From Microbacterium maritypicum (GTDB lineage: Bacteria; Actinomycetota; Actinomycetes; Actinomycetales; Microbacteriaceae): a DNA stretch of 64,000 nt. The notes under the pieces were generated by a model that saw only the letters and a list, made by a program, of their open reading frames with translations, did not search any database and was not told where the DNA came from. The stretch spans positions 1,550,001 through 1,614,000 of the forward strand of contig NZ_WAAQ01000001.1 of assembly GCF_008868125.1 (NCBI RefSeq), written 5' to 3'. Both the position numbers and the translations under genes were made by a program. How positions within the stretch are numbered: position 1 is the first letter of the stretch; the number at the start of each line of letters is the position of its first letter. Positions 13,495-62,276 of the stretch are shown one piece after another.

Positions 13495-14166
13495 ATGAGG
13501 CCTCTCCCAGATAAGCTCCGCGTCGATATCGACGCGGAGCTTCTGGAGTTGGCCCTCACCCATCGCTCGTACGCGTACGAGCACGGCGCCATCCCGCACA
13601 ACGAGCGTCTCGAGTTCCTCGGGGACTCGGTGCTCGGTCAGGCCGTCACCGTCATGCTGTTCACCACGCACCCTGATCTCGATGAGGGCGAGCTGGCCAA
13701 GCGACGCGCGAGCGTCGTGTCGACCGTCGCCCTCGCCGAAGTCGCCCGCGGGATCGATCTCGGCAGTCATCTTCTGCTCGGGCGCGGTGAGGAGCAGACG
13801 GGCGGTCGCGACAAGGACTCGATCCTCGCCGACACGATGGAAGCCGTCATCGGGGCCACCTACCTCTCGGCCGGGCCCGAAGCCGCCACAGAACTCGTGC
13901 TGCGTCTGACGAAGCCGCTGCTGGCCGATCCGGAGCGCTATGGCGCCGCGATGGATCCGAAGACCAGTCTGCAGGAGCTCGCCGCCCGTGTCGGTGCGAC
14001 GCCTCCCCGCTACTCGGTGGAAGCGAGTGGGCCTGATCACGACCGGCGGTTCGTCGCCACCGTCATCGTGGGCGATGTGAGCATGACCGGCGCGGGCAGC
14101 AGCAAGAAGACGGCCGAGATGGCTGCGGCCCTCAGCGCCTGGCGCACCCTCAGCGAGCGTGCCTGA
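13495..14166 (+). CDS. rnc: Ribonuclease III
   Basis: Double-strand-specific endoribonuclease for rRNA and mRNA processing. The family signature [16 protein letters not shown] is near residues 36-51 with the acidic catalytic residues (E40, D44), and the second acidic site lies in [12 protein letters not shown]. The C-terminal dsRNA-binding domain occupies about the last 70 residues and ends [17 protein letters not shown] choose the ATG at 13495 since GGAGG (13479-13483) lies before it; the in-frame GTG at 13474 would add 7 residues and is the alternative. The 3' end overlaps mutM by 8 nt. Confidence 0.94.
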
Positions 14167-15022
14167 GCTTCCTGAGGTCGAGGTCGTCCGTGCGGGCCTC
14201 GCCCCGGCTGCCGTCGGATCCCTGATCACCGCGGTGAGCGTGTTCGATGAACGCGCGCTCACGCGGCACGTCGCGGGTGCCGCTGATTTCGTCGGTCTGC
14301 TCGAAGGACGCACCTTCACCGCAGCGTCCCGCCGGGGCAAGTTCCTCTGGCTCCCGCTCGACGACGGCGACTCCGCGCTGATCGCGCACCTCGGGATGAG
14401 CGGCCAGATGCTGCTTCGTGCTCCCGATGCGGGCGCCGAACGCCATGAGCGCGTGCGCATCGGCATCGAGCATCCGACCCACGGCGAACTCGCGATCGTG
14501 TTCGCCGACCAGCGGACCTTCGGCTCGCTGGCGGTGGACGCACTGATCGACGACGCAGGATCGCGGATCCCCACCCAGGTCGCGCATATCGCCCGTGACC
14601 CGCTGGATCCTCGTTTCGATGATCCAGCTTTCCGCGCGGCTCTGGCCACACGGGGGAGCGCGATCAAGCGCGTGCTGCTCGACCAGGGGGTCGTGAGCGG
14701 GATCGGCAACATCTACGCCGACGAGTCGCTGTGGGCTGCGCGCATCCACCCGGAGACACCCGCCGCCAGCCTGTCGACACAGGCCGTTCGCCGGCTGCTC
14801 GCCGAGGTGCGCCTCGTGCTCGCGAAGGCCCTCGCCGAGGGCGGGACCAGCTTCGATGCGCAGTACGTCAACGTCAACGGTCAGGCCGGCTACTTCGCGC
14901 ATTCGCTCAATGCGTACGGACGTCAAGGCGAGCCGTGCCCGCGCTGCGGAGCGCCGATCGTCCGCGAGAGTTTTATGAATCGCGGGTCGCACTTCTGTCC
15001 GCGGTGCCAGCGACGGCCGTGA
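14159..15022 (+). CDS. mutM: Formamidopyrimidine-DNA glycosylase
   Basis: Base-excision repair enzyme that removes 8-oxoguanine and opened purines. The catalytic N-terminus is intact: Pro2-Glu3 in [14 protein letters not shown]. The C-terminal zinc finger has all four cysteines, at about residues 260, 263, 280 and 283. The 287-aa length is normal. The start is GTG, overlapping rnc. Oddly, the last 46 codons occur again, diverged, at 15562-15705, with an unrelated low-GC gene between. The present 3' end may thus be of foreign origin, replacing the native one. Confidence 0.95.
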
Positions 15023-15036
15023 GGAGGTACTGAGGC

Positions 15037-15423
15037 TCAGCCGTTGAGCAGTACCGATGCGATTGTGCTGTCTTTCATCGTTGCGACCGCGTACACTCCG
15101 TCGTCGAAACCATAGGCGAGGGAAACGCTGGGAGCATTCGCCTCTGAATCCCAAACGGCGCTGAGCGAGCTGAGCTCACACCTGGCGAACATGTTCCGGT
15201 CTGCCTCGCAGGGCAGTTCGGCCGCGACTTCGGCATGCAGTAGCGACGGCTCTTTCTGCTGCACGAACGCAAAGGCTGCGCCTACAGCCTGCAGCGCTCT
15301 CTTCGTTTTCTCGTCGTCAAGCGGGCAGTCGAAGATGACGCCGGATGAATATGTGCTGTCAGCGATTTCTATCGTGCAACGGTAGAACGTGGGCCCCAAA
15401 GCTTCGAACTGGAGGTCGGCCAT
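15037..15423 (-). CDS. Hypothetical protein, probably acquired
   Basis: I do not recognise this 128-aa protein. It begins MADLQFEALGPTFYRC, is mildly acidic, has four cysteines (two in the central CEADRNMFARCE segment) and no signal peptide or membrane segment. A leaderless start fits: TAGACT is 6 nt before the ATG. By hand count about 300 bases of it average 59% G+C, well below the neighbourhood, and codon choice is looser. It lies exactly between the intact mutM 3' end and a second mutM 3' fragment, which points to insertion together with flanking mutM DNA. Confidence 0.7.
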   Translation of the reverse strand: MADLQFEALGPTFYRCTIEIADSTYSSGVIFDCPLDDEKTKRALQAVGAAFAFVQQKEPSLLHAEVAAELPCEADRNMFARCELSSLSAVWDSEANAPSVSLAYGFDDGVYAVATMKDSTIASVLLNG

Positions 15424-15561: not shown

Positions 15562-15705
15562 CAGTCGGGCTACTTCGCGCACTCGCTCAACGCCTACGGG
15601 CAGCAGGGCAAGCCGTGCTCTCGATGCGGCACCTCGATCGTGCGCGAGAGCTTCATGAACCGGGGTTCGCGCTTCTGCCCGCGGTGCCAGCGGCTGCGCA
15701 CGTAG
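15562..15705 (+). pseudogene. mutM: Remnant of a second mutM 3' end
   Basis: Translation in frame gives [19 protein letters not shown] and on through the four zinc-finger cysteines to RLRT and a TAG stop. It matches the last 46 residues of the intact MutM at about 80% identity in my manual alignment. Weaker similarity may reach back to 15543. There is no start codon or N-terminal domain, so it cannot be functional. Its third-position G+C is higher than that of the intact gene's 3' end. It may be the displaced native end. Confidence 0.85.
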
Positions 15706-15731
15706 AGCGGCTACGCACGTAGAGCGGCTAC
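15698..15731. repeat. 17-bp perfect tandem repeat
   Basis: The unit GCACGTAGAGCGGCTAC occurs twice head to tail (15698-15714, 15715-15731). The first copy contains the stop codon of the mutM remnant; the second overlaps the stop of the minus-strand M23-like gene. It marks the right boundary of the inserted segment. Confidence 0.85.
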
Positions 15732-16588
15732 CCGCGCGGGACCGCGGCGATCATGTGCTGCCCCGTTCCGGGGAGAGCCGCGAGAGGACCGCCCTCGTCG
15801 AGGACGACGTCGGCGAACAGTATCGGTAGGCCTTGAGCCGTCCACGGCGATGCTCTATCCATGAGCTGCGCGTGGACATGCGGTTCACTGCTGTTTCCGG
15901 AGTTCCCACAACGTGCGATCCGGGTCCCGGCGCGTACCGTCTCACCGACCTTCACGGCGACGGACCCCTGCTCCAGGTGAGCCACGGTCGCGAAGTCGCC
16001 GTTCGCCCCGCGGATCGTCACGTGGTTGCCCAAGATGAATCCGGGTCCGCCGAGCTCGCGCACCGCTCCCTCGATCAGCATGTAGGCGATCGCCAACCCG
16101 CTCGATCGGGCTCGATGGTCGCGCCGCCAGTCGGTGGCGCGCACGACGACGCCGTCGATCATGGCGAACACCGGCTCGCCGAAGGCGGGGTACTCCCGCG
16201 CCGGCCGCATGGCGGACCCGCTGCCGAACGACGGGCGGGCGGTGTCGTCGGGTTCGTGCACGAGATCGATGGCGTACGCCTGTCCGTACAGACGGATGCC
16301 GTGGCTGGGAACCTTGGTCGCAGGACTGTTCACGCTCAGCCACCGCCCGGACACCGGAGCCGAGATCGCCACGGCGTCTCTGGTCGGAATCAGGCGTGGC
16401 CCGATGAGGACCAGAAGCACGCAGACCGCCAGCACACCGACCGAGATGACGGCGACGATGCTCCTCGCCTGACGAGCGCCATCGCCCAGGCTGATCCCAC
16501 TGGTGAAGGCGATGGCGACGAGGATGAGAGCGGTGACGCCGTAGAGAGGCCCGCGTACACGGTAGAGGGCGAGCAGAATGCGCCTCAT
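15728..16588 (-). CDS. Membrane-anchored M23-family (LytM-like) protein
   Basis: The 286-aa protein has two predicted N-terminal transmembrane segments (about residues 12-32 and 42-64) and an external C-terminal LytM-like domain. The domain shows GNHVTIRG, AHLEQGSVAVKVGETV, RCGNSGNSSEPHVHAQL with the HxH motif, and YGQAYAIDLV. In that last motif the His normally four residues before the Asp is not seen, so zinc binding may be impaired and the role may be binding or regulation instead of hydrolysis. The start overlaps the stop of the HTH regulator gene (ATGA), so the two are coupled. Confidence 0.8.
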   Translation of the reverse strand: MRRILLALYRVRGPLYGVTALILVAIAFTSGISLGDGARQARSIVAVISVGVLAVCVLLVLIGPRLIPTRDAVAISAPVSGRWLSVNSPATKVPSHGIRLYGQAYAIDLVHEPDDTARPSFGSGSAMRPAREYPAFGEPVFAMIDGVVVRATDWRRDHRARSSGLAIAYMLIEGAVRELGGPGFILGNHVTIRGANGDFATVAHLEQGSVAVKVGETVRAGTRIARCGNSGNSSEPHVHAQLMDRASPWTAQGLPILFADVVLDEGGPLAALPGTGQHMIAAVPRG

Positions 16589-17109
16589 CGTTCTGCTCCC
16601 AGCACGCAGACGAGCAGCGGTACGATGCGTGCGGCCGGCACCTCATAGCTGCCGCGCCCACTCTGGCGCACCCATCCGGCCGACACGAGCTGGCGCAGAT
16701 GATGATGTAGCTGTCCGGTCGTCCCGAGGCCGTCGACGGCGGCGAGCTCCGACGTGGCGTGGGTTCCCGAGACGATATGACGAAGGAGCTCGAGGCGCAC
16801 AGGGTGTCCGAGCGCCGCGAAGACGGATGCGCGTTCCGACCACGTGGCCTCCAGCTGTCCTGCGGTTCCCACGGTCTGCTGCCAGGACACCGGTGCTCCC
16901 GTCGGCAACGTCAGCGCGCCGACGAGCATCACCGCTCCCTCTGTCGTCGAGGCGTCATCGGGGAGGCGCGCCTGCAAGCCGTTCAACGCCCAGAAACCGC
17001 CCTCGTCGAAGGGTGCGCTGTGTGAGACGTGGCGCGTCTGCTCCAGCACTGCCACCCGCTCGGTCAGAGCAAGCAGTGCTTCGCGGAGGTGGGAGATCTC
17101 ATCACTCAT
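16585..17109 (-). CDS. ArsR-like winged-helix transcriptional regulator
   Basis: Predicted DNA-binding regulator, 174 aa. The N-terminus (MSDEISHLREALLALTERVAVLEQ) looks coiled-coil. The middle holds an unassigned segment (FWALNGLQARLP...GALTLPTG), and the C-terminal half has the ArsR-type winged helix: ALGHPVRLELLRHIVSG, then ELAAVDGLGTTGQLHHHLRQLVSAGWV. I start at the ATG at 17109, 6 nt after a near-consensus TATTAT; an upstream ATG at 17127 lies inside the palindrome. It is coupled to the M23-like gene and sits downstream of the ABC genes on the same strand. Autoregulation through the palindrome is likely. Confidence 0.8.
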   Translation of the reverse strand: MSDEISHLREALLALTERVAVLEQTRHVSHSAPFDEGGFWALNGLQARLPDDASTTEGAVMLVGALTLPTGAPVSWQQTVGTAGQLEATWSERASVFAALGHPVRLELLRHIVSGTHATSELAAVDGLGTTGQLHHHLRQLVSAGWVRQSGRGSYEVPAARIVPLLVCVLGAER

Positions 17110-17148
17110 GGTCGAATAATACGTCATTACGTATTATTCGACCATGAG
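17105..17148. promoter_or_regulatory. Perfect 20+20 bp palindrome: operator/promoter of the HTH regulator
   Basis: The arms 17105-17124 and 17129-17148 are exact reverse complements around a 4-bp centre (CATT). The A+T-rich core AATAATACGT stands out against the GC-rich surroundings. The minus-strand half contains TATTAT (17116-17121) 6 nt before the regulator's ATG at 17109, so bound protein would block RNA polymerase. By symmetry the same promoter faces right. Confidence 0.8.
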
Positions 17149-17154
17149 TCGCTC

Positions 17155-18477
17155 TCACACGGTCTGGAAGGAACGCTGCAGCAGTGGGCGCGTGGCCCAC
17201 GTGGTGGCCCAGACCACGCCGATCCCGACCGACACGACGGCGGCGATGGTCATCAGCGAGAGTGGGGCCGTGATGAGCGCGATCCCGACGAGCGGGAAGA
17301 CCAGGACGGCTGCGACCAGCGCCGACCCGATCGCCGTGACCAGCAGAGGCGACATGATCGCGCGACGACGCGCCCGATCCACGGTCTCGATCGGCATGCC
17401 CAGGTGGTGCAGGCTGCGGTGCAGGTCGCGCTGGTCGAGCACATCGGACGCCTGATTGACCCCGACCGACGCCGCGACCATCAGGAACGAGCCGATGAGT
17501 GTGATGATGAGCCCGGTGCGGATGTCGTCGGCGAGGGCGATGTCGGACGCGGCGGCGTCGGCGGTGCTCATCATGTTCAGCAGGGCGACTCCCGTGCCGG
17601 CGAACACGGCCATGAAGCTCGCCATCGCGATGCCTCCGACCTGACGCCAGGCCGCCTTCGGAGAATCCAGCACGATCCGCGCGGCGAGCAGTCGCTCGGG
17701 ACGTTCGGCGCGGCGCAGCTGGCGTCCCGCTGAGACTTTGAGCACCCACGGGCCGACCAGATTCAGCACCGCCAACGCAGCTGCGAACAGCCCGGCGAGG
17801 ATGACGATCGTCATCAACAGGCCGCCGACCGAGGGGAACACCTTGATCAGCACGAAGGCGATTGCGATCGCACCGGCGGCGATCACGGCGCGAATCCAGT
17901 GCACCGGTGGCACATCCGTGCGCGTGCGCACGCCCAGGGGCGAGATGACGACGCGGCGAAGGCCGATGACGGCACTGGTGGCTGCGAGTGCGAGCACGGC
18001 CGCGACGACGATCACGGTCTGCAGCGGCGGAAGGACCACGGCTGCGAACCCGAGTGCTTCGCCCCGGAACAGGATCAGCCCGATGAGAGGGCTGATCGCG
18101 ACATGCCCGATGACACCGGCGAGAGCGCCGACCGCAGCCACGAGCACCGACTCCGCGACGGTGGCGACCGTGACTCCGGCCGGTGACACTCCGAGCAGGC
18201 GGAGGGTGGAGAGCCGCTCGTCTCGCCGACGTGCGGAGAGCCGCGCCGCTGCGCCACCGAGGGACATCAGCGGCACCACCAGCAGGACCAGCGCGATGGC
18301 CGCGAGTGCCTGGTAGAGAGGAGCGATCTCATCCGTCCATCCCCAGAAGGACTGCGCACCTCCGATGACCGTGAGGACCAGCATCGTCACCACGGCGAAG
18401 GCGACCACCGGCAGTGCGAGGACGGTGTTCTGGCCGGGAGCAGGCCGCAGCAGGAGGGCGAGGACGTTGCGGTTCAT
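17155..18477 (-). CDS. ABC transporter permease, FtsX/MacB-like
   Basis: Integral membrane subunit of an ABC exporter, 440 aa, with about eight hydrophobic segments. Examples are VLALPVVAFAVVTMLVLTVIGG near residue 25, AIALVLLVVPLMSLGGAAA, and a final LLVTAIGSALVAAVLVFPLVGIALI. Arg-rich loops such as RLSARRRDERLSTLRLLGVS after a transmembrane helix are typical of FtsX-like permeases. The ATG at 18477 overlaps the ATPase stop by 4 nt; a longer open frame to 18783 is only antisense to the ATPase gene. The substrate is unknown; such pairs often export lipids or antimicrobial peptides. Confidence 0.88.
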   Translation of the reverse strand: MNRNVLALLLRPAPGQNTVLALPVVAFAVVTMLVLTVIGGAQSFWGWTDEIAPLYQALAAIALVLLVVPLMSLGGAAARLSARRRDERLSTLRLLGVSPAGVTVATVAESVLVAAVGALAGVIGHVAISPLIGLILFRGEALGFAAVVLPPLQTVIVVAAVLALAATSAVIGLRRVVISPLGVRTRTDVPPVHWIRAVIAAGAIAIAFVLIKVFPSVGGLLMTIVILAGLFAAALAVLNLVGPWVLKVSAGRQLRRAERPERLLAARIVLDSPKAAWRQVGGIAMASFMAVFAGTGVALLNMMSTADAAASDIALADDIRTGLIITLIGSFLMVAASVGVNQASDVLDQRDLHRSLHHLGMPIETVDRARRRAIMSPLLVTAIGSALVAAVLVFPLVGIALITAPLSLMTIAAVVSVGIGVVWATTWATRPLLQRSFQTV

Positions 18478-19169
18478 GCGGCCACCGCCGACGAGATGAT
18501 GCGTCCGTCGCGCACGGCGACCGTGCGTGTGCAGCGGGCGGCGACGTCGGGATCGTGCGTGACCACGACGAGTGTGCGTCCCTGCCCGGTCGTCGACCAC
18601 AGGAGGGCGTCCATGACCTCGGAGGACGTCGTCGAATCGAGGGCGCCCGTGGGCTCGTCGGCGAAGACGAGCTCTGCGCCGGTAGCCTGAGCGCGGGCGA
18701 TGGCGACGCGCTGGGCCTGTCCGCCGGAGAGCTCGCCGATGCGACGATCCTCCATCCCGGCGAGCCCGAGAGCCGCGAGCCACGACGCCGCGTGCTGCAC
18801 GGCGTCCTGGCGGCGGACGCCGTTGATCATGGACGCCAGCGCGACGTTCTCCACTGCCGTCAGCTCGGGGATGAGAAGACCCTGTTGGAAGACGAACCCG
18901 AACCTCTCGCGACGCAGACGCGAGCGCGCGGACTCGCTGAGCGCGGTCACCTCGACGGGGGCGCCCTCGGCGGGGCGGAAGACGACGCTGCCGGCATCGG
19001 GCGCCGTGATTCCGGCCAGCACGTGCAGGAGCGTCGTCTTGCCGGAGCCGGAGGCGCCCATGATCGCCACGGATTCGCCTCGATGGATCGCCAGATCGAC
19101 GCCGGCGAGAGCGCGCGTGGTCCCGAAGGTCTTGATGAGGGCGTGGGCTTCGATCACGGGAGTGTTCAT
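18474..19169 (-). CDS. ABC transporter ATP-binding protein
   Basis: Energises the adjacent FtsX-like permease. The 231-aa ATPase has Walker A GASGSGKT (residues 38-45), the Q-loop FQQG, signature LSGGQ (147-151), Walker B LVFADE (167-172), D-loop GALDS and the switch histidine in VVVTHD. It belongs to the MacB/LolD-type group by length and by the TLLHVLAGITAPDAGSV region. It is first in the unit ATPase-permease-palindrome-regulator-M23-like protein. Its start is preceded by GAGGCT at the leaderless spacing, lacking the first TA of the usual box. Confidence 0.92.
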   Translation of the reverse strand: MNTPVIEAHALIKTFGTTRALAGVDLAIHRGESVAIMGASGSGKTTLLHVLAGITAPDAGSVVFRPAEGAPVEVTALSESARSRLRRERFGFVFQQGLLIPELTAVENVALASMINGVRRQDAVQHAASWLAALGLAGMEDRRIGELSGGQAQRVAIARAQATGAELVFADEPTGALDSTTSSEVMDALLWSTTGQGRTLVVVTHDPDVAARCTRTVAVRDGRIISSAVAA

Positions 19170-61346: not shown

Positions 61347-62266
61347 GTGAGATCTCTCCCGCCGCACTCCGCGGCGCCGTCGACCTGTCCAGCCTGCGCA
61401 ACCGACCGACACCGCCTGCCGACGGCGCGCCTGCTCCCGGGGTCGTCGATCTCGTCGTGGACGCCACCGATGAGACCTTCGGACAGATTCTCGAGCTCTC
61501 GCGTACCGTTCCCGTGGTCGTCGACCTGTGGGCGGAGTGGTGCGGTCCCTGCAAGCAGCTGAGTCCGATCATCGAGAAGGTGACGCGCGAGCTCGGCGGG
61601 CGCGTCTTGCTCGCCAAAGTCGATGTGGATGCGAACCCGCAGCTCGCGCAGAGCTTCCGTGCGCAGTCCATCCCGATGGTCGTGGCCCTCATCGCGGGTC
61701 AGCCGGTGCCGATGTTCACCGGTGCCGTGCCGGAGCAGCAGGTGCGCGACGTGTTCGCGCAGTTGCTTCAGGTGGCGGCGCAGAACGGTGTGACCGGAAC
61801 ACTCTCGGTCGCAGAGGCGGGCACGGAACCCGCGCCTGCTACGGAGCCGGAGCTTCCTCCGCTGCACGCAGAGGCCTTTGCAGCAATCGAAGTCGGTGAC
61901 TACGCGGCCGCCATCAAGGCGTACGAGAAGGCCCTCGCGGAGAACCCTCGCGACGAGGATGCGCTCGCTGGTCTCGGACAGGTGCGTCTTCTCGACCGCG
62001 TGCAGGGGCTCGACCTTCAGTCGGCACGGGCCGCGGCCGCCGAAGCCCCTCTCGATGTCCAGGCGCAGTTCGACGTGGCTGACCTCGACCTCGCCGGCGG
62101 GCACGTCGATGACGCTTTCGGTCGTCTGCTCGACCTGTTCGCGCAGCTCCCGTCCGACCAGCGCGCACCCGTGCGGGAGCGTCTGGTGGAGCTCTTCGGG
62201 CTCATCGGCGCGGAGGATCCGCGTGTGGTGTCGGCGCGCAACCGTCTCTCGTCGCTGCTGTTCTAG
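61343..62266 (+). CDS. Thioredoxin-TPR protein (YbbN/CnoX-like)
   Basis: 307-aa cytoplasmic protein. The thioredoxin domain (about residues 35-140) has the active site WAEWCGPCKQL with C67 and C70, then AKVDVDANPQLAQSF and the cis-proline loop SIPMVVAL. The C-terminal half holds TPR-like repeats (FAAIEVGDYAAAIKAYEKAL, NPRDEDALAGLGQV). Family members act as chaperone-like redox proteins under oxidative stress. The ATG overlaps the stop of the preceding gene by 3 nt (ATGA), so they share a transcript. Confidence 0.92.
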   Translation: MSEISPAALRGAVDLSSLRNRPTPPADGAPAPGVVDLVVDATDETFGQILELSRTVPVVVDLWAEWCGPCKQLSPIIEKVTRELGGRVLLAKVDVDANPQLAQSFRAQSIPMVVALIAGQPVPMFTGAVPEQQVRDVFAQLLQVAAQNGVTGTLSVAEAGTEPAPATEPELPPLHAEAFAAIEVGDYAAAIKAYEKALAENPRDEDALAGLGQVRLLDRVQGLDLQSARAAAAEAPLDVQAQFDVADLDLAGGHVDDAFGRLLDLFAQLPSDQRAPVRERLVELFGLIGAEDPRVVSARNRLSSLLF

Positions 62267-62276
62267 AACAGCAGCG
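62253..62276. terminator. 24-bp perfect palindrome at the stop of the thioredoxin-TPR gene
   Basis: CGCTGCTGTTCT and AGAACAGCAGCG are contiguous reverse complements, with the TAG stop (62264-62266) at the centre. Between convergent genes it probably serves as a bidirectional terminator; it might also be a protein-binding site. Confidence 0.5.

Follow-up and report, generated by a model that had tools for sequence, protein, structure and literature searches.

We will describe a perfect palindrome of Microbacterium maritypicum, found in a stretch of 64,000 nucleotides (assembly GCF_008868125.1, contig NZ_WAAQ01000001.1, positions 1,550,001–1,614,000), which we call the window. It lies between the start of a gene coding for a regulator with an ArsR-type winged helix and the end of a permease gene. 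The reading which we favour, with some reserve, is that the palindrome serves as the autoregulatory operator and promoter of the operon of this regulator and an M23 peptidase, and that its symmetry was derived by mirror copying in a single lineage. The coordinates of all features are given in Table 1.

The palindrome has a length of 46 bp, with a loop CATT (positions 17125–17128) and arms of 21 nt which are 100% complementary. A preliminary description had placed it at 17105–17148; we find the same element with one more pair on each side. Both strands read TATTAT-TCGACC-ATG outwards from the loop, with the ATG in positions 17109–17107 leftward and 17144–17146 rightward. Its G+C content is 37%, compared with 67.6% for the window. 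According to a mononucleotide model, arms of at least 21 nt with a loop of at most 8 nt are expected 1.5e-6 times per 64 kb and 8.8e-5 times per genome. In five first-order Markov simulations of the window the longest arms had 9–13 nt. The core AATACGTNATNACGTATT, allowing up to 3 mismatches, occurs in a single place of the 3.67-Mb genome. With the same tolerance the palindrome was found in two of 365 Microbacterium genomes other than the window's own, namely G126 and G196, and among 57 relatives of G196 only in G196 itself. Two other assemblies, MYb66 and MYb62, have a less perfect palindrome in the corresponding position. Fold-back artefacts during amplification can generate perfect symmetry, but an origin by chance or by faulty assembly is hardly credible in view of the very low expectation per genome and of the imperfect palindromes in these two assemblies.

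The inner part of the element can be compared with the upstream regions of related regulators. These were taken from three sources: a search of 295 genomes of the genus, 26 of which gave a match at E 1e-10 or better (this count includes the genome of the window), a search of 365 genomes with 13 at E 1e-40, and a scan of GTDB, from which the 80 best of 91 loci were used. Once 6 duplicates were dropped, there were 102 regulator loci. A filter for TANNNT placed 4–9 nt before an in-frame start codon kept 89 of them, while 13 failed. In 88 of the 89 the distance from this -10 box to the start codon is 6 or 7 nt, a conservation which is partly built in, since the loci were selected by the same TANNNT. 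A leaderless promoter had been proposed for the regulator, and it is upheld as a prediction by this constant spacing. Another start codon, at 17127 inside the loop, would give an open reading frame of 180 amino acids; it was rejected because it lies upstream of the -10 box and the start of the relatives aligns with 17109.

Aligned on the -10 box, the 88 loci with enough upstream DNA give a family profile with TTG at -23 to -21; CG cores follow at intervals of 8 bp, in positions -18/-17, -10/-9, -2/-1 and +6/+7. When the three palindromic loci are set apart, 85 remain: CG is found at box 2 in 65 of them and at box 3 in 67. To the left of these boxes another CG lies at a distance of 8 bp in 56 loci and of 9 bp in 12; to their right, 44 loci have one at 8 bp and none has it at 9 bp. 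In this family the operator seems to consist of directly repeated ACGT-like boxes with a CG core, which extend over the -35 position, the spacer, the -10 box and the leader. The palindrome is very probably the regulator's own operator, as judged from this pattern. The view that the regulator needs complete symmetry finds no support, as the pattern conserved in the other 85 loci is one of CG-core boxes directly repeated at 8 bp. A search of the window's own genome with a pattern of two boxes plus the -10 box gave a single exact site, to which allowing one mismatch added nothing; at up to 3 mismatches there were 234 forward matches against 275 in the reversed control, and therefore we claim no further targets. 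As a separate observation, locus L083 has four successive TACGT boxes with 8-bp spacing ahead of its start codon.

Table 1. Features in and around the palindrome (positions in the window)
Feature	Position	Strand	Remarks
46-bp perfect palindrome	17104–17149		Arms 17104–17124 and 17129–17149, loop CATT
-10 box TATTAT of the regulator promoter, overlapping box 3	17116–17121	-	6 nt before ATG; same place in 89 TANNNT-filtered loci
Operator box 3 (ACGT)	17121–17124	-	Predicted from the family profile
Operator box 2 (ACGT), 8 bp from box 3	17129–17132	-	Predicted from the family profile
-35 position, TGGTCG (TTGnAC in the family)	17139–17144	-	Mirror of CGACCA; family comparison
Mirrored -10 box TATTAT, predicted rightward antisense promoter	17132–17137	+	Present in all three genomes with the palindrome
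103-codon frame antisense to the permease 3' end	17144–17455	+	Judged not a gene (open reading frame listing, Pfam, permease comparison)
Regulator, 174 amino acids	16585–17109	-	Long N-terminal helix, helix and two strands, C-terminal ArsR-type winged helix
Peptidase_M23 protein	15728–16588	-	Pfam match; overlaps the regulator's stop codon
FtsX-like permease	17155–18477	-	FtsX 24.1 bits, under the cut-off of 25.5; stop codon 5 bp from the palindrome
ABC transporter ATPase, presumably the permease's partner	18474–19169	-	Profile matches

ACGT is its own reverse complement, so that two boxes yield the inner 12 bp of the palindrome free, and it is the outer arms which need an explanation. If pairs are counted from the axis that separates boxes 2 and 3, all 21 positions are paired in the window, 16 in G126 and 14 in G196. 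In the outer 17 pairs the 86 other loci have a mean of 5.5 and a maximum of 11. The difference is clearest in the 11 pairs from 5 to 15: 11 are formed in the window, 11 in G126 and 9 in G196, compared with a mean of 3.8 and a maximum of 8 in the 85 others. When left halves were combined with the right halves of other loci, these 11 positions never gave more than 9 pairs in 20,000 draws. In a rapidly built tree with 40 of the 89 regulators, those of the window, G126 and G196 form one clade with a support of 94 (SH-aLRT, Shimodaira–Hasegawa-like approximate likelihood ratio test); next to it stand L033 and L005, whose boxes are direct. Thus the long dyad, found in three Microbacterium genomes, is probably derived from a one-way promoter with direct repeats; as the relatives suggest such an ordinary origin, symmetry would be a late change.

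The two arms differ in their relation to the family. The right arm, in the direction of the regulator, keeps the family -10 box, leader and start. In the left arm, upstream, TGG stands in the place of TTG; in the window and G126 this arm also lacks an ACGT-like box at the 8-bp distance. These two have 9 bp between outer and inner CGs on either side, an arrangement not seen in any of the 85 other loci. The left arm resembles a mirrored duplicate of the right arm, and copying from right to left is the simplest account of the whole. Inverted duplication of a promoter was the second option considered in the preliminary description, and it is the one that best fits the comparative data.

The genomic position of the palindrome is also peculiar. 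In the three palindromic loci its outer end is found about 5–10 nt past the permease stop. These are the only 3 of the 102 loci with a permease relative directly upstream of the regulator, although some loci hold little upstream DNA; in L036 a 39% permease relative lies about 660 nt from the regulator. The permease itself has a match in 147 of the 295 genomes. We have compared the best 30 loci: 27 have no regulator–M23 cassette, and in 18 of these 27 a match to fpg on the opposite strand ends at most 82 nt from the permease stop. In G196 and G126 fpg comes after the M23 gene. As fpg follows M23 there, and permease and fpg abut in most of the cassette-free loci, the two-gene cassette sits in the permease–fpg gap, with the palindrome at the junction. 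The ancestral operator would have had three to four CG-core boxes, directly repeated every 8 bp. In a single lineage of Microbacterium, with the cassette between the permease stop and fpg, the -35 position and the first box would have been replaced by a mirrored -10 box, leader and start codon.

Some further features of this region may be mentioned. In 4 of the 27 cassette-free loci (L132, L144, L155 and L158) the gap between permease and fpg has 430–1008 nt with apparent inserts, and in 5 fpg is not seen within the stretch covered; this gap seems to take inserts repeatedly. In the window a stranded fpg 3' end (15562–15705) is found beside the M23 gene. It resembles the native one (92% to G252, 89% to G039), whereas the resident fpg 3' end (14882–15022) is a more distant version, at best 85.5%. 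Between them there is an open reading frame of 128 codons (15037–15423), which was not found in the loci of the compared relatives. It looks as if the fpg 3' end had been swapped by an insertion.

Several observations weigh against an operator obtained by mirror copying. Apart from the selection of loci by their -10 box, TGGTCG is a poor -35 sequence, a consensus promoter scan gave no sigma-70-type site at the palindrome, and Foldseek alone gave no match for the regulator at E 0.001 or better (the best had 2.8e-3). G196 has only 14 of 21 pairs, a value equalled by L012, L041 and L066, and its outer CGs are 8 bp, not 9, from the inner ones on the left, with 9 bp on the right. The three permeases do not form one clade (p 0.0002 in the approximately unbiased test): the cassette-free G039 and G252 nest with the window and G196, so that a single insertion requires later loss or exchange. 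A search for remnants of regulator and M23 gave none in the stretches of G039 and G252; the same search gave one M23 match in L133, with E 0.76. The left halves (-24 to -13) of the three palindromic loci score below the median against the family profile, but, counted from the lowest of 85, their ranks are 19, 33 and 24; since they are no outliers, a replacement of box 1 is not forced. Finally, three genomes are too few to separate copying from selection.

Selection would have built the symmetry stepwise, by substitutions on the left side, with a regulator dimer that prefers the dyad ATANTACGT-N4-ACGTANTAT. The ordinary left halves agree with it, and so does G126, which differs from the window by one double change affecting both sides of one pair, with pairing kept. 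Another Microbacterium lineage, L012 (G085), has a shorter dyad of 10 successive pairs, AATACTACGTA-AG-TACGTAGTATT; L008 and L050, its neighbours in the tree, have retained direct boxes. Against selection, this dyad is absent from L128 (G340), which is 92% identical to L012. Further against it, the symmetry extends beyond the -10 box through the leader in G126 and into the coding ATGAGT in the window, where relatives show little dyad. We consider this origin possible, but doubtful. With similar reserve we may suggest a particular form of copying: when cassette and permease were joined, a 3' end would have primed on the inner ACGT-N4-ACGT hairpin, and snap-back synthesis would have given the perfect two-way promoter-operator in one step. 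It would now fire antisense into the permease gene and bury the start codon of the regulator in read-through mRNA. If this were true, perfect symmetry would be an insertion scar, kept for coupling or insulating two operons.

As the arms are exact, the -35 position, -10 box, leader and start codon are the same on both strands. The mirrored -10 box reads TATTAT in the window and in G196 and TACTAT in G126. Each predicted start overlaps the -35 position of the other, so the polymerases should exclude each other. The preliminary description had proposed a two-way leaderless promoter for two genes, with a real protein of 103 codons rightward. The two-way core can be retained as a prediction from the sequence, given the mirrored box in all three genomes and the identical letters on both strands; the rightward gene cannot, and the proposal of two genes is very improbable. 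The mirrored ATG is found in the window only, one of the three palindromic loci. The 103-codon frame matched no Pfam family, and Pfam, the permeases and the palindromic loci gave no conserved gene on both sides of the promoter. In each of the 30 permease genes which we examined, whether a palindrome is present or not, the corresponding antisense frame is open over 83–385 codons, so that its openness says little. An in-frame ATG or GTG at most 90 nt upstream of it is found in 6 of the 29 other permease loci, which favours a coding frame; there is none in 23. The rightward gene is probably not real, and the frame is best explained by the codons of the permease, from which it would arise incidentally. 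According to PMC4633059, leaderless translation in mycobacteria needs no more than a 5' ATG. If transcribed, the frame might be translated, but we found nothing that suggests a function.

The palindrome could also act mainly as RNA. The read-through mRNA of the permease would fold into a 21-bp hairpin, ending or protecting the permease message, in which the ATG of the regulator would be buried; only the leaderless mRNA, which has no left arm, would be translated. A 96-nt RNA of the region folds with -40.6 kcal/mol (z -7.7), a value which none of 200 shuffles equals, and the long palindrome is found where the permease stop is about 10 nt upstream. As DNA, a stretch of 54 nt gives -23.4 kcal/mol. 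However, the features of an intrinsic terminator are absent: the G+C content is low, no T run follows and no terminator-like match was listed at the site. The hairpin is broken in G196, and its inner part is accounted for by the operator boxes alone. A main role as RNA is therefore rather unlikely.

We now return to the regulator as a protein. When compared with ArsR/SmtB repressors such as CzrA, SmtB and BigR, it has in addition an N-terminal helix and a part formed by a helix and strands. It reaches 32.2 bits with the NCBIfam metalloregulator model, under the curated cut-off of 55. Its translation has one cysteine, residue 168, so that a metal site of paired cysteines is absent; one with histidine or carboxylate may exist. 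In the defence-system library the sole match was Csa3, with residues 85–156. A lectin-like middle domain in residues 29–81 (phmmer, 7dc0 with E 0.003 and 4fbr with E 0.0087) was dropped, since the family profile does not find these proteins at E 0.1.

Regulator and M23 peptidase presumably form one operon, with the regulator first. An M23 relative is present in 43 of the 89 regulator loci. From loci with no M23 we picked 13 downstream proteins and tested 10: seven matched PF00144, which has the fold of beta-lactamase-type serine hydrolases, two were transglutaminase-like and one was SecA (loci L061, L077, L083, L088, L096, L103, L014, L092, L095 and L015). Pairing with hydrolases appears to be a recurring feature of this regulator family.

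The window has other palindromes. A perfect one of 30 bp (13513–13542) lies within the frame of rnc, which codes for RNase III, in codons 14–23. In eight Microbacterium genomes codons 16–25 show 2 codon differences in total, compared with a gene mean of 24.4 per 10 codons; the first 15 codons are also quieter than the average of the gene, and the centre of the palindrome differs in two of the eight. Its hairpin has -32 to -34.5 kcal/mol. It is a candidate for a self-cleavage hairpin of RNase III in its own gene. Another perfect palindrome, CGCTGCTGTTCTAGAACAGCAGCG, has 24 bp (62253–62276) and no T run.

In the mechanism that we propose for the 46-bp palindrome, RNA polymerase would use the TATTAT box and start at the A of the ATG, giving a leaderless mRNA. 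Proteins with the ArsR fold are dimeric, and the regulator, presumably a dimer, would cover the ACGT boxes which overlap the -10 box and the spacer and thus shut the promoter. A signal, perhaps related to the cell envelope, would release it. By symmetry the polymerase could load either way, one at a time, and rightward transcription would run as antisense against the 3' end of the permease gene, with no real gene. Operators of ArsR proteins are usually described as imperfect inverted repeats, whereas the family operator predicted here repeats its boxes directly at 8 bp. Bacterial promoters that work both ways and have symmetric -10 elements are known, and here too the symmetry predicts loading of RNA polymerase both ways. 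The palindrome differs from them in that the symmetry spans the -35 position, -10 box, leader and start codon, with predicted starts which are 35 bp apart and face outwards. As in other leaderless promoters of actinobacteria, the -10 box lies 6–7 nt before ATG or GTG; the exact mirror image on the opposite strand sets it apart from them. The C at -1 and T at +2 agree with the context that RNA polymerase prefers, according to PMC4633059.

The palindrome is most likely an autoregulatory operator of an ArsR-fold regulator, the direct-repeat form of which became palindromic in one small lineage. It would offer a comparative case of a promoter that changes its symmetry, from a one-way 8-bp direct repeat in relatives to palindromic descendants in three genomes, at the junction of a gene insertion. 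It would also define an 8-bp CG-box operator for a regulator family found across actinobacteria beside M23 peptidases and other hydrolases. As a natural promoter with the same core both ways, it may be used to study the rules of transcription direction and the silence of a leaderless ATG buried in a hairpin.
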